Below are positions 28,278 through 63,590 of a stretch of 64,000 bases of DNA, one piece after another. The translations under genes were made by a program, and so were the position numbers. The notes under the pieces were generated by a model, which worked only from the letters and a program-made list of their open reading frames with translations, was not told where the DNA came from and ran no database searches. Position 1 is the first letter of the stretch, and each line of letters begins with the position of its first letter. This stretch comes from Streptomyces sp. NBC_01571 (lineage in GTDB: Bacteria > Actinomycetota > Actinomycetes > Streptomycetales > Streptomycetaceae), in contig NZ_JAPEPZ010000001.1 in assembly GCF_026339875.1 (NCBI RefSeq), forward strand, positions 2,542,001 through 2,606,000, in the 5' to 3' direction.

Positions 28278-28865
28278 ATGGGAAAGACCTACGAACGCAT
28301 CGACGGCCGGCTGCGCACGTTCATCGAGGCCCAGCCCCTCTTCTTCACCGCGACCGCACCGCTGTCCACGGACGGCACGATCAACCTCTCCCCCAAGGGC
28401 ATCACCGGTTCGTTCGCCGTGCTCGACGAACGGACCGTGGCCTACCTCGACTTCGCCGGCAGCAACGCGGAGACCATCGCGCATCTGCGGGAGAACGGCA
28501 GGATCACCCTCATGTGGTGCGCCTTCCAGGGGCCGCCCAACATCGTCCGGGTGCACGGTCACGGCGAGCCCGTCTTCCGTGACGACCCCCGCTTCAAGGA
28601 ACTGCTCACGCACTTCCCCGGCGTCGACCCCACCCCGCACGGCCTGCGCGCGATCATCGTCGTGACGGCCGAACTCGTCCGTGACACCTGCGGCTACGCG
28701 GTGCCCTTCATGTCGTACGACGAGGACCGCGACCTGCACGCCCAACGCTTCGCCCGCGAGGACGACACCTCGCTGAACACCTACTTCACCAAGAAGGAGC
28801 ACATCGCGACCAGCCTGGACGGCCTACCCGGGCTGCCGCTCCCGCTGCCGCCCACTACCGTCTGA
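28278..28865 (+). CDS. pyridoxamine 5'-phosphate oxidase-family flavoprotein
   Basis: A 195-residue split-barrel protein. PLFFTATAPLSTDGTINLSPKGITGSF, VAYLDFAGSNAETIAHLRENGRITLMWCAF and VRVHGHGEPVF match the large family of flavin- or F420-binding oxidoreductases related to PdxH; the PdxH substrate residues are not evident, so vitamin B6 oxidation should not be assumed. No binding site is seen before the ATG; the transcript may be leaderless. The next gene starts 3 bp after its stop. Confidence 0.82.
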   Translation: MGKTYERIDGRLRTFIEAQPLFFTATAPLSTDGTINLSPKGITGSFAVLDERTVAYLDFAGSNAETIAHLRENGRITLMWCAFQGPPNIVRVHGHGEPVFRDDPRFKELLTHFPGVDPTPHGLRAIIVVTAELVRDTCGYAVPFMSYDEDRDLHAQRFAREDDTSLNTYFTKKEHIATSLDGLPGLPLPLPPTTV

Positions 28866-28868
28866 GCC

Positions 28869-29558
28869 ATGCGCCTCGGAGCCGTCGCCCTCGCGTCCGC
28901 GTCCCTTCTCGCCCTCGCCCCGAACGGGCCGCCACCGCTCCCCGGGCAGCTCGCGGACACCGGCGGCGGCAGCCAGCTGATCACGGCGCGGGCGCCGCGC
29001 GCCGACGCGACGTCGGGCACGCTCACCTGGTGGGACCGGCGCGACGGGCACTGGGTGAAGGCCGGATCCGCGGTGGCGCGTTTCGGGGCCAGGGGGCTGG
29101 TCGAGGGCGGCTCACGCAGACAGAGCACGAACACGACACCCACGGGGCTGTACGCCCTCCCGTACGCGTTCGGCATCCGCAAGGCGCCGGACGGCACCCG
29201 GGCCCCCTACCGCCGGGTGCGCCAGGAGTCCTGGTGGTGCGAGGACATCGGGTCCCGCTCCTACAACCGCTGGACCGAGCCCCGCCCCGCCGACTGCCGC
29301 GCCACCGAGTCCGAGCAGCTGATCACGTACGACCCCCAGTACGCGTACGCCCTCGTCGTCGGCTTCAACTACGACAAGCCGGTACGGGGTCGCGGCGCCG
29401 GCATCTTCCTCCATGTCGACGGGCGCGGGGCGACCGCCGGCTGTGTGTCGGTGCCGGTGGACGCCATGCGGCGGATCCTCTCCTGGGTCGATCCCTCGCG
29501 AGCGCCCCACATCGCGATCGGAACGGACGGCGGAGCGACCGCGATCACGAGGTACTGA
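28869..29558 (+). CDS. secreted L,D-transpeptidase-like (YkuD) protein
   Basis: A 229-residue protein with a short signal peptide (MRLGAVALASASLLALAPNG). The C-terminal half carries HVDGRGATAGCVSVP, which fits the YkuD catalytic pattern of His followed by S/T-x-G-C with Cys as nucleophile. Such enzymes cross-link peptidoglycan through a Cys acyl-enzyme. The 3-bp gap to the flavoprotein gene implies co-translation, although no functional link is obvious. It converges on the sensor kinase gene. Confidence 0.8.
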   Translation: MRLGAVALASASLLALAPNGPPPLPGQLADTGGGSQLITARAPRADATSGTLTWWDRRDGHWVKAGSAVARFGARGLVEGGSRRQSTNTTPTGLYALPYAFGIRKAPDGTRAPYRRVRQESWWCEDIGSRSYNRWTEPRPADCRATESEQLITYDPQYAYALVVGFNYDKPVRGRGAGIFLHVDGRGATAGCVSVPVDAMRRILSWVDPSRAPHIAIGTDGGATAITRY

Positions 29559-29600: not shown

Positions 29601-31136
29601 TCAGCGGGCGCCGAGCCGGACCGTGAACGTCGTCGCCCCTGGCCGGCTCTCCAGCGCGACCGTGCCACCGTGCGACTCCACCACCGCGGCCACGATCGAC
29701 AGGCCCAGCCCCGCGCCGCCGCCCCCGCCCCCGCCCCCCGCACGACGGCGGTCGGCCCGGGTGAACCGCTCGAAGACGCGGGGCCGGACGTCCTCCGTGA
29801 CTCCCGGCCCGTTGTCATGGACCGTCAGCACGGGCCCGGTGCCGTCGGTCTCCAGACGCACCCTGACCTCGGTGCCGACGGGCGTATGCAGACGCGCGTT
29901 GGCCAACAGGTTGGCCAACACCTGTTGGAGTCGGTGGGCGTCCCCCGTCACCGTCACCGGTTCCTCCGGGAGTTCCAGCGTCCAGCGGTGGCCGGGACCG
30001 GCCGCCCGCGCGTCCGTGACCGAGTCCAGGACGAGGTGGGTGAGGTCGACGGGGAGGCGTTCCAGGGGGCGCCCCGCGTCGAGGCGGGCGAGCAGGAGCA
30101 GGTCGTCGACCATCTCGCCCATCCGCGCCGACTCCGCGGCGATGCGTTCCAGGGCGCGGGTGACCTCCGGCGGCACCGGACCCGGGTGCAGCAGGGCCAG
30201 CTCGGCGTGACCCCGCACCGACGCGACCGGCGTGCGCAGCTCGTGGCTGGCGTCGGCGGCGAAGCTGCGCAGCCTTTCCTCGCTCGCATGCCGCTTGGTC
30301 AGCGCGTCCTCGACATGACCGAGCATCCGGTTCACCGCACCGGCGACCCGGCCCACCTCGCTGCGCGGATCGGGTTCGGGCACCCGCGCCGGCAACGCGA
30401 CCTCGCCGCTGGCGAGCGGGAGCTCGCTGACCCGGGTCGCGGTCGCGGCCACCCGGTTCAGCGGGCGCAGCGACCAGCGCACCCACAGGGCGCCGGCGAC
30501 TCCGGCGACGACGAGGGCCACGCCGAAGACGCAGCCCGCGACCAGTTCCAGGCGGTGGACGGCGGCCCGGACCGGCTCCATCGGCAGCCCGGTGATCAGG
30601 ACGTCGCCGTCCCGGCCCCGGACCGCCATCACGCGGTAGTCGCCGAGCGCGGACAGACAGACGGTGTGGCCGAGGCCGTTCTCCGGGACGGCCGCCAGGG
30701 TCCGGCGGTCGGCGGGGGTCACCTTCACATAGAGATTGGTCGTGTCGTCGCCGGGGCGGACGACCGCCGCGTTGCTGACGTCCGTGCCGACCAGCCGGGC
30801 GCCGAAGGTGCCGGTGCTCTGCCGACGGGTGTCGCCGTTCTCGTCCCCGTCATGGTCCGACTCCACCACCTTCCCCCCGTGCTCCAGGCTCGCCGGGAAG
30901 CGCGGCCCCACGTCCCGCAGCTGCTGGTCGACACGGCCGGTGAGGAAGCCGTTCAGCTCGTACACGGCGGCCACGCCGACGGCCGCGCAGCCGACGGCGA
31001 GCAGCACCAGCAGCCCCGCCGTCAGCCGCGCCCGTATCGTCCGGGGGAACGGGACCCCACGGACGAGGGCCCGCGCTCCCGACCGCCCCCGTCGCACCGC
31101 GCTCCCCCACCGCGCGCTTCCCCACCGCACGCTCAT
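29601..31136 (-). CDS. sensor histidine kinase
   Basis: A 511-residue membrane kinase. Helices at about 38-58 and 198-219 enclose an outside sensor domain of about 140 residues. A HAMP segment follows (RWSLRPLNRVAATATRVSEL), then the dimerisation helix with phospho-acceptor His298 (ADASHELRTPVASVRGHAEL), N box (LANLLANARLHTP), G1 box (HDNGPGV) and G2 box (GAGLGLSIVAAVVESHGG). A run of eight or nine Gly residues interrupts the ATP lid just before G2. Its start overlaps the regulator's stop by 4 bp. The pair is divergent from the redox gene cluster it probably controls. Confidence 0.92.
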   Translation of the reverse strand: MSVRWGSARWGSAVRRGRSGARALVRGVPFPRTIRARLTAGLLVLLAVGCAAVGVAAVYELNGFLTGRVDQQLRDVGPRFPASLEHGGKVVESDHDGDENGDTRRQSTGTFGARLVGTDVSNAAVVRPGDDTTNLYVKVTPADRRTLAAVPENGLGHTVCLSALGDYRVMAVRGRDGDVLITGLPMEPVRAAVHRLELVAGCVFGVALVVAGVAGALWVRWSLRPLNRVAATATRVSELPLASGEVALPARVPEPDPRSEVGRVAGAVNRMLGHVEDALTKRHASEERLRSFAADASHELRTPVASVRGHAELALLHPGPVPPEVTRALERIAAESARMGEMVDDLLLLARLDAGRPLERLPVDLTHLVLDSVTDARAAGPGHRWTLELPEEPVTVTGDAHRLQQVLANLLANARLHTPVGTEVRVRLETDGTGPVLTVHDNGPGVTEDVRPRVFERFTRADRRRAGGGGGGGGAGLGLSIVAAVVESHGGTVALESRPGATTFTVRLGAR

Positions 31137-31888
31137 CCGCCCGCCGCCGGTTTGAGCACGTATCCGGCGCCCCGCACGGTGTGGATCATCGGTTCACGGC
31201 CCGCGTCCACCTTCTTGCGCAGATAGGAGATGTACAGCTCCACCACATGGGCCTGGCCGCCGAAGTCGTACGACCAGACGCGGTCGAGGATCTGCGGCTT
31301 GCTGAGCACCCGGCGCGGATTGCGCATCAGGAAGCGCAGCAGCTCGAACTCGGTCGGTGACAGCTCGATCAGCCCGCCGCCACGCGTCACCTCACGGGCC
31401 TCCTCGTCCATGACGAGGTCGCCGACGATCAGGCGCGGGCCCTCGTCGAGCTGCCGGGCCATGCCCGCGCGGCGCAGCAGTCCGCGCAGCCGGGCGACGA
31501 CCTCTTCCAGGCTGAACGGCTTGGTCACGTAGTCGTCGCCGCCCGCCGTGATGCCCGCGACACGGTCCTCGACGGCGTCCCGCGCGGTGAGGAAGAGCAC
31601 ACAGACCTCGGGCCGCACGGTGTGCAGGGTGCGCAGTACGGCGAAGCCGTCGGTGTCCGGGAGCATCACGTCGAGGACGACGGCGTCGGGCATCAGCTCG
31701 CGCGCCTCGGTGAGGGCCGAGGCGCCGTCGGCCGCCGTCCGTACCTCCCAGCCCTCGTAGCGCAGGGCACCGGAGAGGACCTCGGCCAGGTCCGGGTCGT
31801 CGTCGACGACCAGGACCCGGACCGGGGTGCCGTCGGGCCGGGTGAGCGCGGGCAGGCCGGTGCCTCGTGAGCGGGGAGTGTTCATCAT
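31133..31888 (-). CDS. OmpR/PhoB-family response regulator
   Basis: A 251-residue two-domain regulator. The receiver has the acidic pocket VVDDDPD, phospho-acceptor Asp73 (VVLDVMLPDTDGF), the conserved Thr (LFLTARD) and Lys (DDYVTKPFS). The DNA-binding winged helix is ELSPTEFELLRFLMRNPRRVLSKPQIL...VVELYISYLRKKVD. Such regulators bind pairs of direct repeats spaced by 11 bp, which are present just upstream at 31937-32031. First gene of the two-gene operon. Confidence 0.94.
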   Translation of the reverse strand: MMNTPRSRGTGLPALTRPDGTPVRVLVVDDDPDLAEVLSGALRYEGWEVRTAADGASALTEARELMPDAVVLDVMLPDTDGFAVLRTLHTVRPEVCVLFLTARDAVEDRVAGITAGGDDYVTKPFSLEEVVARLRGLLRRAGMARQLDEGPRLIVGDLVMDEEAREVTRGGGLIELSPTEFELLRFLMRNPRRVLSKPQILDRVWSYDFGGQAHVVELYISYLRKKVDAGREPMIHTVRGAGYVLKPAAGG

Positions 31889-31936
31889 GTCGTCTTCCAG
31901 GATCGCCCCTCACCGGAGGTGGCAGCACCCCTCCCG

Positions 31937-32031
31937 CCTCTGAGTTTCCTCTGAGTGAGCCGCCTGGGCCGCTCTCCGTTACCTGTGAATCCGCGTCGGG
32001 GGCGCCCATTCAGAGGCTACTCAGAAGTTAC
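31937..32031. promoter_or_regulatory. two pairs of 11-bp direct repeats, likely regulator operators
   Basis: Pair A is CCTCTGAGTTT/CCTCTGAGTGA at 31937-31958. Pair B is TCAGAGGCTAC/TCAGAAGTTAC at 32010-32031, in the opposite orientation (the core on one strand is CTCAGAGG). Each pair has exactly one helical turn between repeats, the layout used by OmpR-family dimers. Pair A is near the regulator gene start, pair B about 40 bp before the first reductase gene. Confidence 0.75.
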
Positions 32032-32072
32032 CGAAGCACAGTTTCCTCCCGGACAGCCGGAAGGACGGACAT

Positions 32073-33443
32073 ATGACCACGGTGTACGAGCGGACAGCGG
32101 TTCCTCGCCCGTCACGCGGACGCAGACGACCGCGCCGCTCGCCCGCCGGGCCCCTGCTGGCCCTGCTGTGGGGCGGTGCCGGGGCGGTCGTCGCCTTGTG
32201 GTGGTACGACACGCAGTCGGTGGTGGGCCTTGCCGGGTGGCTGACCGACGCCGGCCGGATCGCGGGGCTGCTCTGCGGCTACACCTGCGCGGTCCTCGTC
32301 GCGCTGATGGCCCGGGTACCGCTCCTCGAGCGGCGGGTCGGCTCGGACCGGGTGGCCCGCTGGCACGCCATGGCCGGCCGGTACACGGTCAGCCTGCTGG
32401 TGGCGCATGTCACGCTGATCCTCTTCGGGTACGCCGCCCAGGACGGGGCGAGCATCGTGCACGAGACGCTGAGCATGGTGTTCGACTACCCGGACATGCT
32501 CAAGGCCACGACCGGCACCGTCATCCTCTTCGCCGTCGGGATCACCTCGGCGCGCACGGCCCGCCGCCGGATCAGCCACGAGTTCTGGTACTACCTGCAC
32601 CTGCTGACGTACGTGGCCGTGTTCCTCACCTTCTTCCACCAGCTCGCGCTGGGCTCGGACTTCGTCGGCAACACCGCCGCCCAGGCCGCCTGGTACGTGC
32701 TCTACCTGGGCACGGCCGCCCTGGTCGTCCGGTTCCGGCTGCTCACCCCGGTACGGCTCAACCTGCGCCACAAGCTGCGCGTGGAGGACGTGCACCGCGA
32801 GGCGCCCGGCGTCTTCTCCATCGTCGTACGCGGGGAACGGCTGGACGAGCTGAACGCTCAGGCAGGGCAGTTCTTCCGCTGGCGGTTCCTCTCCGCCGGG
32901 ATGAGGTGGACCTCGACGCCGTACTCGCTCTCGGCCCCGCCGCGCCCCGACCTGATGCGGATCACCGTGAAGGCGCTCGGCGACCACAGTGCCGCCGTGG
33001 GGCTGCTGCGGCCCGGCACCCGGGTGTGGGCGGAAGGCCCCTACGGCGCGCTGACCGCCGATCGGCACACCGGACGCAAGGCGCTGCTGATCGCCGGCGG
33101 CGTCGGCATCACGCCGCTGCGCGCCCTGTTCGAGACGCTGCCCGGCGGGCCCGGCGATGTAACGCTGCTCTACCGGGCGAGCACGGCCGAGGACCTCGCG
33201 CTCGGCGCCGAGCTGGAGGCGATAGCGCAGTGGCGTGGGGCGCGCGTCCTGTACGCGGTCAACGGCGCAGACGGGACACGTCCGAGATTCACCGCCGATT
33301 CCCTGCGGGAGGCCGTGCCCGACCTCACCGGGCATGACGTCTATCTGTGCGGTCCGCCCGCCATGGCCAGGGCCCTGTACGGCGCGCTGCGCGCGGCCGG
33401 GGTCCCCGACCGCCGTATCCACCACGAGTCGTTCGAGCTGTGA
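32073..33443 (+). CDS. ferric reductase-like transmembrane flavocytochrome (first copy)
   Basis: A 456-residue protein. Residues 25-240 form about six transmembrane helices with four well-placed His: 98 and 112 in one helix, 176 and 189 in another. These can bind two b-type hemes stacked across the membrane, as in NOX/FRE enzymes. Residues 240-456 are a flavodoxin-reductase module: FAD site TPYSLS, NAD(P) site LIAGGVGITPLRALFETL, and CGPP near the end. It should carry electrons from cytoplasmic NAD(P)H to the outer face. An FMN-binding protein gene follows 7 bp later, probably its electron acceptor. Start ATG 32073, AGGACGG region upstream. Confidence 0.88.
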   Translation: MTTVYERTAVPRPSRGRRRPRRSPAGPLLALLWGGAGAVVALWWYDTQSVVGLAGWLTDAGRIAGLLCGYTCAVLVALMARVPLLERRVGSDRVARWHAMAGRYTVSLLVAHVTLILFGYAAQDGASIVHETLSMVFDYPDMLKATTGTVILFAVGITSARTARRRISHEFWYYLHLLTYVAVFLTFFHQLALGSDFVGNTAAQAAWYVLYLGTAALVVRFRLLTPVRLNLRHKLRVEDVHREAPGVFSIVVRGERLDELNAQAGQFFRWRFLSAGMRWTSTPYSLSAPPRPDLMRITVKALGDHSAAVGLLRPGTRVWAEGPYGALTADRHTGRKALLIAGGVGITPLRALFETLPGGPGDVTLLYRASTAEDLALGAELEAIAQWRGARVLYAVNGADGTRPRFTADSLREAVPDLTGHDVYLCGPPAMARALYGALRAAGVPDRRIHHESFEL

Positions 33444-33450
33444 GGCCGTC

Positions 33451-33954
33451 ATGCACGCCCTGAAGAAGCACCGTCCGCTGCGCCGCGTGACGCTGGCGGC
33501 CGCGACCACCGTCACGGGTGTCGTCCTGCTGCTGTCGCTCAAGCCGCACACGCCGCCGACCGTGGCACAGGCGTCGTCCTCCGCCGGACAGTCACAGTCG
33601 ACGTCCCGGTCACCTTCGCCCGGAGGCTCTTCCGGAGGCTCCTCGGGAGGCTCGTCCGGGAGTGCGAAGAGCACGGGCACCAAGACCATCACCGGTGACA
33701 CGGTCCAGACCCGCTGGGGCCCCGTCCAGGTGCGCGTCACGCTGAAGAACGGCAAGATCACCGATGTGACCGCGGTCTCCTATCCCTCGGACAACTCACG
33801 GGACCAGGAGATCAGCAGTTACGCAATTCCCCAGCTCAGGAGGGAGGCGCTGGCCGCGCAGAGCGCCCAGATCGACTCCGTCTCGGGGGCCTCGTACACC
33901 AGCGACGGATACAAGCAGTCCCTCCAATCGGCACTGGACTCGGCAGGCCTCTGA
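33451..33954 (+). CDS. membrane-anchored FMN-binding protein (one domain)
   Basis: A 167-residue protein. A signal anchor (about 12-30) is followed by a Ser/Gly-rich flexible linker (about 40-75) and one FMN-binding domain like those of NqrC, RnfG and NosR. The attachment motif is DSVSGASYTS with Thr150 as the likely site where ApbE couples FMN through a phosphoester. It should sit outside the membrane and accept electrons from the reductase encoded just upstream. The ATG at 33451 is used; longer frames overlap the reductase gene. Confidence 0.87.
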   Translation: MHALKKHRPLRRVTLAAATTVTGVVLLLSLKPHTPPTVAQASSSAGQSQSTSRSPSPGGSSGGSSGGSSGSAKSTGTKTITGDTVQTRWGPVQVRVTLKNGKITDVTAVSYPSDNSRDQEISSYAIPQLRREALAAQSAQIDSVSGASYTSDGYKQSLQSALDSAGL

Positions 33955-34038
33955 ACGCACGGCCGCCGGGCCCCGTATCTCTGGGCCAGGGGACCCCTCC
34001 CCTCACCCCGTCCCCAACGGACGCCCACGGAGGAACCG

Positions 34039-35418
34039 TTGTCCACGATCGCCGGTGGCCGCGCCGCGCGGCGCCAGACCCTGCGCCGAATCCGCCCACT
34101 ACGCTCCCCCGCCGTCCCCCTGCTGCTCGCCGTCTGGGCGGGCGCGGCCGGGGTCATCTGGCTGTGGTGGAGCAACACCCCGTCCATCGCGGACGACAAC
34201 AGCAAGATCCTCAACGCGGGCCGCATCACGGGGCTGCTCGCCGGGTACCTGATGGCACTGGTCGTGCTGCAGATGGCCCGGGTGCCCGCCCTGGAGCGCC
34301 GGGTGGGATCGGACCGCGTCGCGCGCTGGCACGCGATGAGCGGCCGGTACACGATCTGTCTGGTCCTCGCCCACCTCGTCCTGATCATGTGGGGCTACGC
34401 GCTGCAGGCGGGCAAGAGCTTCGGCGACATCGTCCAGCAGACCATCGACTCGATCAACCAGCTGCCCGACATGGGCAAGGCGGCGATCGGCACCGGTCTG
34501 CTGCTCGTCATCGGTCTGCTCTCGATGGGTCCGGTGCGCCGCAGGATGGGATACGACACCTGGTACCACATCCACCTGCTCACCTACGCCGCCGTCTTCC
34601 TGACGTTCTGGCACCAGCTGTCCACGGGGAACGAGTTCGCCGTCGACCCGACCGCGAAGACCGTCTGGTACGGGCTGTACGGATCGGTGACGGCGCTGGT
34701 GCTCTGGTACCGGATCCTCGCCCCGATCCGGCTGAACCTGAAGCACCGGATGCGGGTCGAGGCGGTCGTCGAGGAGACGCCCGGCATCGTCTCGGTGCTG
34801 ATCAGCGGCCGGAAACTGCATCGCATGGGTGCGGAGGCCGGGCAGTTCTTCCGCTGGCGCTTCCTGGCACCGGGCATGCGGCTCAGCTCGCACCCGTACT
34901 CGCTGTCGGCGGCGCCGCGCCCCACCATGCTGCGCATCACGGTGAAGGCGATCGGCGACCACAGCTCCGCGCTGCGCGACCTGCGGCCCGGCACCCGGGT
35001 CTGGGCCGAGGGCCCCTACGGGGCGCTGACGGCGGCCAAGCGCAGCCGCGGCAAGGTGCTGCTGGTGGCCGGCGGTGTCGGCATCACGCCGATGCGGGCG
35101 CTGTTCGAGACACTGCCCGGCTCGGCGGGCGATCTGACGCTGCTCTACCGGGCCAACACCACCCAGGACCTGGCCCTGTGGGACGAGCTGGCCTCGATCG
35201 CCGAGGAGCGCGGGGCCCGGCTGATGTACGCGGTGAACAGTCCCGAGGGGGAGCGTCCGGACATCTCGGCGGAGACCCTGAGCCGGAAGCTCCCGGACAT
35301 CGACCGCCACGACGTCTTCATGTGCGGGCCGCCCGGCTTCGCGCAGCAGGTCTACCAGGCACTGCGCGGCGCGGGGGTTCCCGCCCGCCGCATCCATCAC
35401 GAGTCGTTCGAGATGTGA
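34039..35418 (+). CDS. ferric reductase-like transmembrane flavocytochrome (second copy)
   Basis: A 459-residue paralogue of the gene at 32073, alike along its whole length. Heme ligand candidates are His98, His112, His179 and His192; the FAD site is HPYSLS, the NAD(P) site LVAGGVGITPMRALFETL, and CGPPGF is near the end. Both proteins end in RRIHHESFE plus one residue. The start is a TTG with GGAGGAA upstream. The pair evidently arose by duplication of a reductase plus FMN-protein unit. Confidence 0.88.
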   Translation: MSTIAGGRAARRQTLRRIRPLRSPAVPLLLAVWAGAAGVIWLWWSNTPSIADDNSKILNAGRITGLLAGYLMALVVLQMARVPALERRVGSDRVARWHAMSGRYTICLVLAHLVLIMWGYALQAGKSFGDIVQQTIDSINQLPDMGKAAIGTGLLLVIGLLSMGPVRRRMGYDTWYHIHLLTYAAVFLTFWHQLSTGNEFAVDPTAKTVWYGLYGSVTALVLWYRILAPIRLNLKHRMRVEAVVEETPGIVSVLISGRKLHRMGAEAGQFFRWRFLAPGMRLSSHPYSLSAAPRPTMLRITVKAIGDHSSALRDLRPGTRVWAEGPYGALTAAKRSRGKVLLVAGGVGITPMRALFETLPGSAGDLTLLYRANTTQDLALWDELASIAEERGARLMYAVNSPEGERPDISAETLSRKLPDIDRHDVFMCGPPGFAQQVYQALRGAGVPARRIHHESFEM

Positions 35419-35437
35419 GCGACGGGAGTCAGGAGCG

Positions 35438-36265
35438 ATGAAGAAGAGCCACCCCATTCGACGTGCCGTGCTGGCCGGTGCCGCCACCGTGTCCGGGATC
35501 GTCCTGCTGCTGTCGCTGAAGCCCGCCTCCGACCCGGCGTCGGCGCAGGGCGCGGCCGCACCGCGGCAGTCGGCGGCGCAGGAGTCGCCCCAGGGCGGCA
35601 GCGCGCAGCAGTCGTCCTCGGGGGCAGGGACCGTCACCGGCGACGTCGCCCAGACCCAGTACGGTCCTGTCCAGGTCCGTATCACCGTCAGGGGCGGCAA
35701 GGTCACCAGGTCCGAGGTCGTCCAGATCCCGAGCGGTGGCCGCAGTACCGAGGTGAGCAACAGCTCGGTGCCCAGGCTCAACCAGGAGGCCGTCGCCGCG
35801 GGCAGCGCCGACATCGACGCCGTGTCCGGTGCCACCTACACCAGCGCCGGGTACAAGAAGTCGCTGCAGTCGGCGCTCGACAAGGCGAAGGCCCAGGGCA
35901 GCGGGGCGTCAGGGTCGGCGGGGTCCACCGGTGCCGCGGGCTCGACGGGCTCGTCCGGTGCCTCCGCGGCGCCCCAGGCCCCCGCCACGCAGGCCCGCAC
36001 CGTCACCGGAAGCGTGGCCCAGACCCAGTACGGCGCCGTCCAGGTCCGTGTCAGCGTCAGCGGCGGCAAGATCACCAAGGCCGAGGCCGTCCAGGCGCCC
36101 AAGGGCGGTCTGAGCGACCAGAAGACCGCGATGGCCGTTCCCAAGCTCAACCAGGAGGCCGTCGCGGCCGGAAGTGCCGACATCGACGCCGTGTCCGGTG
36201 CGACCTACACCAGCACGGGATACAAGCAGTCCCTGCAGTCGGCCCTGGACAAGGCCGGTGGCTGA
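35438..36265 (+). CDS. membrane-anchored protein with two FMN-binding domains
   Basis: A 275-residue protein with a signal anchor (about 8-27), a Gln/Ser/Ala-rich linker, FMN-binding domain 1 (about 65-150), a Gly/Ser/Ala linker (153-185), and FMN-binding domain 2 (about 187-275). Both domains carry DAVSGATYTS, with Thr135 and Thr258 as likely flavin sites. The two domains are very similar (AQTQYGxVQVR; LNQEAVAAGSADIDAVSGATYTS), pointing to a recent internal duplication. Two bound FMNs could pass electrons outward in series. Confidence 0.88.
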   Translation: MKKSHPIRRAVLAGAATVSGIVLLLSLKPASDPASAQGAAAPRQSAAQESPQGGSAQQSSSGAGTVTGDVAQTQYGPVQVRITVRGGKVTRSEVVQIPSGGRSTEVSNSSVPRLNQEAVAAGSADIDAVSGATYTSAGYKKSLQSALDKAKAQGSGASGSAGSTGAAGSTGSSGASAAPQAPATQARTVTGSVAQTQYGAVQVRVSVSGGKITKAEAVQAPKGGLSDQKTAMAVPKLNQEAVAAGSADIDAVSGATYTSTGYKQSLQSALDKAGG

Positions 36266-37046
36266 CCCCTCCCAGGAGCCGCACGCGCTGCGGCACGCCG
36301 AAGAAGTCATGGGCACCGTCTTCTCGTTCGACGTGCGCGGCGGCGAACCAGACCTCGTCCGGGCCGCGTTGGACGAGGCGGTCGCCGAACTCCACAAGGT
36401 GGACGAGGTGTTCAGCACCTATCGCGAGGACAGCCAGCTCTCCCGCCTGGCACGCGGTGAGTCGAGCGTCGAGGAGTGCGATCCGGAGGTCGGCGAGGTG
36501 CTCGACCTGTGCGCCGAGGCGGAGCGGCTGAGCGCGGGCTGGTTCAGCACGAGGTACGGGGGGCGGCTCGACCCGACCGGTCTCGTGAAGGGCTGGGCGA
36601 CCGAGCGTGCGGCCCGTCGCATGGCGGCGGCCGGCGCGAGCGGGGTGAGCGTGAACGGGGGCGGTGACGTCCAGCTGTTCGGGGCTCCCGGCACCCACCG
36701 TCCCTGGCGGGTCGGCGTCTCGGATCCGCTGCGTCCCGGTGGGCTCGCGGCCGTGGTCTCCGCCGCCGGTGTGGAGGAGCTGGCGGTGGCCACCTCCGGC
36801 ACCGCCGAGCGCGGCGCCCACATCGTCGACCCGAGCACCGGCCGCTCCGCGGTCACCGACCTGGTCGCCGTGACCGTGGTGGGTCCCCGCCTGACCTGGG
36901 TGGACGCCTGGGCGACGGCCGCCTTCGCGATGGGTTCCCGGGAGGCCCTGAGCTGGCTGGAGTCCCTTCCGGACATCGAGGCCCTGCTCATCACGGCGGG
37001 CGACGAGGTGAGATGCACCGGGGGCCTCGCCCAACGGCTGGGGTGA
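36258..37046 (+). CDS. apbE: FAD:protein FMN transferase
   Basis: A 262-residue ApbE-type enzyme. It uses FAD and Mg to attach FMN to Thr in extracytoplasmic proteins. Landmarks are EEVMGTVFSFDVR at the start, LDPTGLVKGWATERAARRM, VNGGGDVQLFG and the metal/FAD site VATSGTAERGAHIVDPSTGR. The GTG at 36258 overlaps the stop of the two-domain FMN protein by 8 bp, which couples modifier and substrate. No signal peptide or lipobox is seen, so whether it acts outside the cell is uncertain; some actinobacterial ApbE lack a recognisable one. Confidence 0.9.
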   Translation: MADPSQEPHALRHAEEVMGTVFSFDVRGGEPDLVRAALDEAVAELHKVDEVFSTYREDSQLSRLARGESSVEECDPEVGEVLDLCAEAERLSAGWFSTRYGGRLDPTGLVKGWATERAARRMAAAGASGVSVNGGGDVQLFGAPGTHRPWRVGVSDPLRPGGLAAVVSAAGVEELAVATSGTAERGAHIVDPSTGRSAVTDLVAVTVVGPRLTWVDAWATAAFAMGSREALSWLESLPDIEALLITAGDEVRCTGGLAQRLG

Positions 37047-63297: not shown

Positions 63298-63590
63298 GGC
63301 GGTCTGGCGGACAGCCGCGTATGTCTCTGATGACAATGGACCAACCGCCGCGGCACATGAAAAATGCCCCGGACGGGACACAGGCGGGGCTCCATGGACT
63401 ACCGGAGCACCGCCGCGGTCAACCGCGGGGCGCACTTTCGGGCGACTCCACCGTCCGTACGGAACGGTGGTGGCCGCCTGACCGGGTGACCTGCCGTCCC
63501 GGAGGACAGTCAGGTGGGAGATCGGAGCCTCCACTTGTGGGCCGAGCACATACATGTCCGGCCGGTCGTTACACAAGGTTAGCAGCTCGG
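63298..63590 (-). promoter_or_regulatory. infC: structured infC leader with attenuator
   Basis: About 290 nt upstream of infC. A -10-like TAACCT lies at 63576-63581 (leftward). Downstream of it are strong hairpins: CCACCG/CGGTGG at 63448-63470, CCGCGG-TCAA-CCGCGG at 63413-63428, and the terminator at 63360-63390. Such a leader suggests autoregulation by IF-3, L20 or L35. No leader peptide is clear. Confidence 0.6.
63360..63390 (-). terminator. intrinsic terminator inside the infC leader
   Basis: Stem GCCCCG/CGGGGC (63366-63371 and 63385-63390) followed on the leftward strand by ATTTTTC. The five-T run is rare in this genome. It lies about 90 bp before the infC start and so would act as an attenuator. 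Confidence 0.7.

Follow-up and report, generated by a model that had tools for sequence, protein, structure and literature searches.

The window analysed here is a stretch of 64,000 nucleotides from Streptomyces sp. NBC_01571, and this report concerns a module of seven genes at positions 29601..37046 of it. All seven open reading frames (ORFs) were present in ORF calls on the window. Five of them lie on the plus strand in the order FRT1-FMN1-FRT2-FMN2-ApbE and specify two flavocytochromes, two FMN-binding proteins and an FMN transferase. A histidine kinase (HK) and response regulator (RR) pair is oriented divergently on the minus strand. This gene set, with its order and domains, is as given in the preliminary description of this DNA. 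The assembly comprises 11.5 Mb, its closest relatives are Streptomyces, and FRT2 of S. mirabilis is 97% identical to that of the window. The features are as follows.

29601..31136, minus strand: HK, sensor histidine kinase (Pfam HAMP, HisKA and HATPase; two hydrophobic segments flank a loop predicted to lie outside)
31133..31888, minus strand: RR, OmpR/PhoB-type response regulator (Pfam Response_reg and Trans_reg_C), overlapping the HK start
31939..31954, minus strand: proposed RR box TCAGAG-N5-TCAGA, facing the RR-HK operon, about 50 nt upstream of the RR start
32010..32025, plus strand: proposed RR box TCAGAG-N5-TCAGA, facing FRT1, about 50 nt upstream of the FRT1 start
32073..33443, plus strand: FRT1, NADPH oxidase (NOX)/ferric-reductase-like flavocytochrome of 456 aa (Ferric_reduct and NAD_binding_1; His 98/112/176/189)
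33451..33954, plus strand: FMN1, with an N-terminal anchor and twin Arg, a linker and one FMN_bind domain (T150)
34039..35418, plus strand: FRT2, FRT1 paralog of 459 aa (His 98/112/179/192; TTG start preceded by GGAGG)
35438..36265, plus strand: FMN2, a close homolog of SaFMN3, with an N-terminal anchor and twin Arg and two FMN_bind domains (T135 and T258)
36258..37046, plus strand: ApbE, a compact FAD:protein FMN transferase (PF02424) without a signal segment, its start overlapping the FMN2 stop

On the plus strand, successive genes are separated by 7, 84 and 19 bases up to FMN2 and ApbE, which overlap. These short gaps and the overlap of the last gene are consistent with a single plus-strand operon. 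A search for sigma-70 promoters and terminators found none. The module accounts for every match that searches of the whole genome returned: three FMN_bind domains, one ApbE frame (in two pieces) and two Ferric_reduct genes. At the thresholds used, the assembly therefore offers this ApbE no FMN_bind substrate outside the module.

FRT1 and FRT2 share 57% identity. Ferric_reduct (PF01794) was detected in the two proteins at 61.3 and 71.2 bits (cut-off 28) and a C-terminal PF00175 (NAD_binding_1) at 44.3 and 41.9 bits (cut-off 22), with an additional FAD_binding_8 match in FRT2 (23.1 bits, cut-off 22). Each of the four heme-type histidines (H98, H112, H179 and H192 in FRT2; H98, H112, H176 and H189 in FRT1) is His in 220/220 aligned rows, and we presume that they act as bis-His pairs. 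The two His pairs and the FAD/NAD(P)H domain that mark a NOX fold are therefore present in the FRT sequence, in line with the two four-histidine paralogs described earlier. The best structure match of FRT2 was the flavohemoprotein 4eh1 (3e-13). Residues 160-443 also matched the solved structure 8qt6 (E 1e-12), and FRT2 matched 8qq5; both are bacterial NADPH oxidase entries (SpNOX). The preliminary description spoke of duplicated flavocytochromes, and a fresh tandem duplication was rejected: in a tree of 123 of the 220 FRT rows, built by a quick method without bootstrap, same-genus rows split into two neighbouring clades, FRT1 and FRT2, joined at an SH-aLRT of 99 (the fork adding locus L154 to the FRT1 side has support 92). 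By this tree FRT1 and FRT2 are older paralogs rather than products of a recent duplication. FRT relatives with neither FMN_bind nor ApbE in the stretch read were seen at nine loci (L158-L162, L176, L198, L203 and L241).

The final Thr of the SGA(S/T)YT motif falls exactly where it had been placed, at T150 in the one FMN_bind domain of FMN1 and at T135 and T258 in the two of FMN2. Residues 63-150 of FMN2 (88 residues) align with 8p2a, domain 2 of SaFMN3 (E 1.5e-39). The number of such sites in FMN2 differed among loci of the genus: two in 34 and three in one of the 35 double loci defined below, and two in 23, three in 19 and four, five or one in one each of the 45 single loci; these counts come from related rows and no statistical test is claimed. 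The PplA-type model NF041941 scored 28.2 bits (cut-off 325), and NqrC/RnfG models gave FMN2 at most 33.3 bits (cut-offs 144-455). By hydropathy, both FMN proteins begin with a hydrophobic anchor. Twin Arg precedes the anchor in 115 of 117 FMN-protein rows from the 80 Streptomyces loci, and in the other two rows the anchor was not found. Six residues before the first Arg, mainly in FMN2, there is R in 56/74 and K in 18/74 rows, a pattern that is weak alone because the N-terminal stretch is highly conserved throughout in these rows. The twin Arg suggests that Tat is a fair candidate route for FMN1 and FMN2 in Streptomyces. As a general route, Tat was not supported outside these Streptomyces proteins (RR in only 34/70 rows).

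ApbE matches PF02424 at 150.6 bits (cut-off 25.6), and its start is most likely the GTG at 36258, which overlaps the FMN2 stop; most of the 120 ApbE relatives listed are 262-267 aa. The 75 residues upstream of the domain were scanned for a hydrophobic segment (hydropathy score threshold 1.5). None of the 158 module ApbE ORFs, from 153 module loci, had one (top score 0.66), and in 150 of them the domain is whole and the 5' end visible. In contrast, a segment was present in 20 of 31 control ApbE ORFs from 25 chosen genomes of other classes of the phylum; the 11 controls without one are two fragments and nine ORFs from family codes f26 and f40. By this hydropathy test, the N-terminal signal or lipobox of secreted-type ApbE was not found in the module ApbEs. 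In a column comparison of 24 module rows (window included) with 27 control rows, the module ApbEs lack a region surrounding a GPxxxLWxF segment: some 46 columns there are empty in at least 60% of the module rows and occupied in at least 60% of the controls. Pfam and PDB alignments of ApbE break at the same place. The core residues K111, H188, D216 and T220 are kept in 24/24 module rows and 26-27/27 controls. Domain length is 249-317 in the module and 297-368 in the controls, with overlapping ranges. A short motif tried as a marker of the compact form failed as a control (9/27), and the compactness claim rests on the column comparison.

Since this ApbE has no export signal, flavin attachment is probably cytosolic and precedes export. 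The usual order, in which export comes first and attachment follows outside, is thereby called into question. Covalent FMN itself, the main check asked for in the preliminary description, is documented for the close homolog SaFMN3 with an ApbE supplied in Escherichia coli (PMC10339131; papers are cited here by PMC number). The extracytosolic ApbE of Listeria requires exported FAD (PMC9973259), which a cytosolic ApbE would not; the examples of cytosolic ApbEs given in a 2025 review are those of Klebsiella and two protists (PMC12052999). We advance tentatively, at slightly below even chances, that actinomycete surface flavoproteins would be loaded inside by a compact, signal-less ApbE using cytosolic FAD and then exported (by Tat in Streptomyces, by another route where there is no twin arginine), a second maturation route that would be general for actinomycete MsrQ-like systems.

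We surveyed the conservation of the gene order, as had been proposed. Of the 295 genomes of the genus that were sampled, 172 have FMN_bind. In a sample of the class covering 394 genomes and 137 genera, an FRT2 relative (E ≤ 1e-30, whether or not FMN_bind is adjacent) turned up in 166 genomes and 71 genera. Streptomyces gave 204 matching loci, of which the best 80 divided into 35 double loci (FRT1-FMN1-FRT2-FMN2-ApbE) and 45 single loci with FRT2-FMN2-ApbE only, counts in which loci may repeat a genome, as L056 and L149 are one contig; the short loci L088-L117 (no hits) and L118-L147 (mostly repeats of others) were left out. HK-RR was present in 34/35 double loci; in the remaining one, L056, a contig end interrupts the locus. 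Beside FRT2 it was present in 0/45 single loci, two of which have a weak kinase match beyond argD. HK-RR goes with FRT1-FMN1 as a cassette. In three genomes (G897, G107 and G223) an FRT1-type HK-RR-FRT-FMN cassette lies elsewhere, with no ApbE within the 14 kb read (L148, L150 and L154), and ApbE is present at the FRT2 locus of the same genomes (L119/L166, L125 and L122, respectively). Outside the genus, FRT with FMN_bind recurred in 67 fetched loci from 20 other family codes. These recurrences, in the 80 Streptomyces loci and in the 67, show that the arrangement is not due to chance. RR and HK both lie within 4.5 kb in 25 of the 67, in 8 of the 20 family codes.

Two variants of the set were noted outside the genus. 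Small genomes (about 1.3-2.2 Mb) of family code f97 keep FRT-FMN-ApbE with RR and HK within 4.5 kb in 0/9 loci (L196, L199, L201, L202, L207, L210, L215, L216 and L227) and have epimerase-like and other family-limited neighbours. Locus L230 (G770, family code f90) carries two FRT-FMN-ApbE sets close by with one HK-RR between them, a separate duplication. Within the genus, a divergent second FRT-FMN system with its own HK-RR was seen at L163-L165 and L167-L170, mostly with KR before the anchor, and no box was found in the six intergenic stretches listed for it.

The proposed box, TCAGAG-N5-TCAGA, is a direct repeat with an 11-base period, and one copy precedes each of the divergent promoters. 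Genome-wide, the exact pattern matches at two places, both at the module, and the reversed pattern at one. When at most two mismatches were allowed, a longer form of the pattern matched the genome 41 times and its reverse 32 times; the sole perfect match of the longer form is at the module, as is one of its four one-mismatch matches. When the window was shuffled, 13 of 100 shuffles gave at least two box matches (one mismatch allowed). Among the fetched loci, 53 boxes fell in 52.8 kb of intergenic stretches between the two-component system (TCS) and FRT genes, compared with three in the remaining ~2.4 Mb; two of those three are one contig read twice and lie directly before FRT1, and the third (L080) is probably before FRT1. 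Among loci that have the divergent pair, 39 of 47 in Streptomyces and 3 of 10 elsewhere contain at least one box. As the box is confined to the module in the genome and recurs at Streptomyces loci, the switch is probably local and dedicated, at least in Streptomyces.

A tree was built from 51 module RRs (that of the window, 7 from the 80 Streptomyces loci and 43 from other loci) together with 26 regulators of this genome, chosen from 48 regulator-type hits. It placed 47 of the 51 in one clade (99/99) together with 3 of the 26, and the other four elsewhere. This grouping indicates that the regulator has largely travelled with the module. Together with the locus counts and the box, it bears out the earlier proposal that the TCS belongs to the module. 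CutRS was rejected as a relative of the HK, as it rests on two loop cysteines (PMC12802291) and the loop of the window HK has one. In the same tree, the non-module regulator nearest to the window RR belongs to a TCS at L308 (G000:C1:5226500-5234500), beside a glycosyltransferase-like gene (names by eye). Equal-score regulator-type matches also recur on three contigs (G000 C1:22572, C2:6469 and C3:267554, with neighbours), the pattern expected of terminal repeats or a shared element.

These findings argue for a self-contained module that exports electrons across the membrane to covalent-FMN proteins, a reading to which we give a probability of about 70%. Judging from the family and the invariant residues, FRT1 and FRT2 would pass electrons from cytosolic NAD(P)H through FAD and two membrane hemes to the outer face, where they would reduce covalent FMN on the anchored FMN1 (one site) and FMN2 (two sites); the outside placement of the FMN domains is a prediction. 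The linkers of the FMN proteins may let the flavins pass electrons outward to a diffusible or shared acceptor, such as O2, ferric or cupric complexes or quinones. ApbE, the sole one found in the genome, would attach FMN from cytosolic FAD, probably before export, for which Tat is a candidate. HK-RR may sense an outside signal and control both its own promoter and the FRT1 operon, using one box for each. FRT2-FMN2-ApbE would then be a basal unit at the arg locus and HK-RR-FRT1-FMN1 a regulated add-on that shares ApbE. Electron export to ApbE-flavinylated surface proteins, also the proposal of the preliminary description, remains the best reading and has been put forward for the class as a whole (PMC8238504).

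Several observations weigh against this model or parts of it. RR and HK are not both within 4.5 kb in 42/67 loci outside the genus, and the box, whose pattern was drawn from the window first and counted elsewhere afterwards, is missing from 8/47 Streptomyces and 7/10 other divergent-pair loci. Twin Arg is not universal: 22 further same-genus rows comprise 16 RR and 6 KR, the latter from the divergent second system, and 70 rows from outside the genus comprise 34 RR, 18 KR/RK, 16 with none, one KK and one without an anchor. TatC is present in 34/34 genomes chosen and is uninformative on the export route, and anchors and export signals were judged by hydropathy, not SignalP. A widely conserved acceptor or partner gene beside the module was not found in an all-against-all comparison of 2285 ORFs from 65 hand-picked loci (5.5 kb each side, ORFs overlapping module genes removed), the widest neighbour family occurring in 7/65 loci. 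The lack of any wider family favours a diffusible or shared acceptor.

The nature of that acceptor separates most of the other explanations. A ferric or cupric reductase, assimilatory or detoxifying, whose kinase senses metal through an acidic/His loop, is a credible though doubtful alternative. The FRTs carry a Ferric_reduct domain, heavy-metal models are among the better NCBIfam matches of the regulators, below cut-off (HK 180/293 and RR 179/279 bits), and a VIT1 iron transporter occurs in 153 MsrQ-like clusters (PMC8238504). The HK residues D94, H95, D96, D98, E99 and D102 are kept in 38-41 of 41 Streptomyces rows; on the other side, conservation of the acidic stretch is only partial in 28 other rows (D96 in 18, D98 in 15), some of them possibly unrelated kinases, and a metal or cation as the HK signal is only a guess. 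No metal transporter was seen as a widely conserved neighbour, in a comparison that did not search gene names. We consider it unlikely that the module is NADPH-oxidase-like, with O2 as acceptor and extracellular superoxide or peroxide as product for signalling, wall chemistry or competition. Reaction with O2 is common among reduced flavoproteins in any case, and a NOX has no need of a flavin partner. These points tell against the oxidase, as does the absence of a peroxidase among widely conserved neighbours (gene names again not searched); the two His pairs, the FRT2 matches to 8qt6 and 8qq5 and the use of O2 by reduced SaFMN3 (PMC10339131) speak for it.

An MsrPQ-like electron feed for the repair of oxidised surface proteins (methionine sulfoxide, disulfides) appears improbable. 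FRT1 matches the MsrQ model NF003831 weakly, at 19.6 bits against a cut-off of 130, with no FRT2 match listed, and no widely conserved partner adjoins the module; MsrP was not sought genome-wide. Finally, the FMN domains might stay in the cytosol as membrane-bound internal shuttles, which would explain an ApbE without an export signal, and this we regard as very improbable. Basic residues precede the single anchor, which under the positive-inside rule would place the domains outside, and the linkers are rich in Ser, Gly and Ala. SaFMN3 is likewise predicted outside (PMC10339131), and peptide shaving located the FMN domain of PceC outside (PMC5928378).

The module is flanked by argG, a PNPOx-type flavoprotein gene and a YkuD-type gene on one side and by argR on the other (argG, argH, argR and argD were named by eye). 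The PNPOx-type and YkuD-type genes (window 28278-29558) adjoin the module and are kept in many single and double Streptomyces loci. Elsewhere in the window, 63359-63570 (minus strand) matches Rfam RF02830, Streptomyces RNA Scr1601, at 189 bits.

The core machine is already known as the actinobacterial MsrQ-like class. MsrQ-like flavinylation systems, with PF01794 by apbE and FMN_bind, were found by Meheust et al. in 2021 in 1797 clusters from 1468 genomes, broadly in Actinobacteria, and were called uncharacterised (PMC8238504). Like them, the module has a PF01794 membrane protein, usually with an NAD-binding domain, beside FMN_bind and apbE: the genes are adjacent, where the class allows a distance of up to five genes from PF01794 to ApbE/FMN_bind, and the common, optional C-terminal PF00175 is present in both FRTs. 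Unlike them, it has two FRT-FMN pairs, its own two-component cassette with a box and a compact, signal-less ApbE. The terms 'Histidine kinase' and 'response regulator' are absent from the main text of that paper, and a counterpart in S. coelicolor was not found with the few terms tried on the review PMC9739842. Three additions were not found in the literature searched: a compact ApbE without a signal as the norm in actinomycete modules, the two-component cassette, and the box that goes with this cassette. The dedicated kinase, defined box and closed gene set make the system tractable, and knowledge of what induces it would be a lead to the acceptor. If the flavins are indeed attached inside, these modules would form a large exception to the need for a secreted ApbE and exported FAD.

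Among individual proteins, SaFMN3 of S. azureus (8P2A) binds FMN covalently; its potential is -184 mV, and its reduced form is reactive towards O2 (PMC10339131). It resembles FMN2 in its N-terminal anchor and repeated FMN domains and differs in having three domains rather than two. With bacterial NADPH oxidases, for which we take 8qt6 and 8qq5 as the type, FRT2 shares the FAD/NAD module and the last membrane part (residues 160-443); a dedicated covalent-FMN partner and an ApbE set the present system apart. Listeria extracellular electron transfer (PplA/FmnB) also delivers electrons to a surface protein with ApbE-attached FMN, but FmnB is extracytosolic there and an ECF transporter exports FAD (PMC9973259), whereas here the ApbE is signal-less and the membrane part is a flavocytochrome. 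The cytosolic ApbE of Klebsiella likewise has no signal peptide; its target is a soluble fumarate reductase (PMC12052999), whereas the targets of the module ApbE are membrane-anchored and predicted to lie outside.

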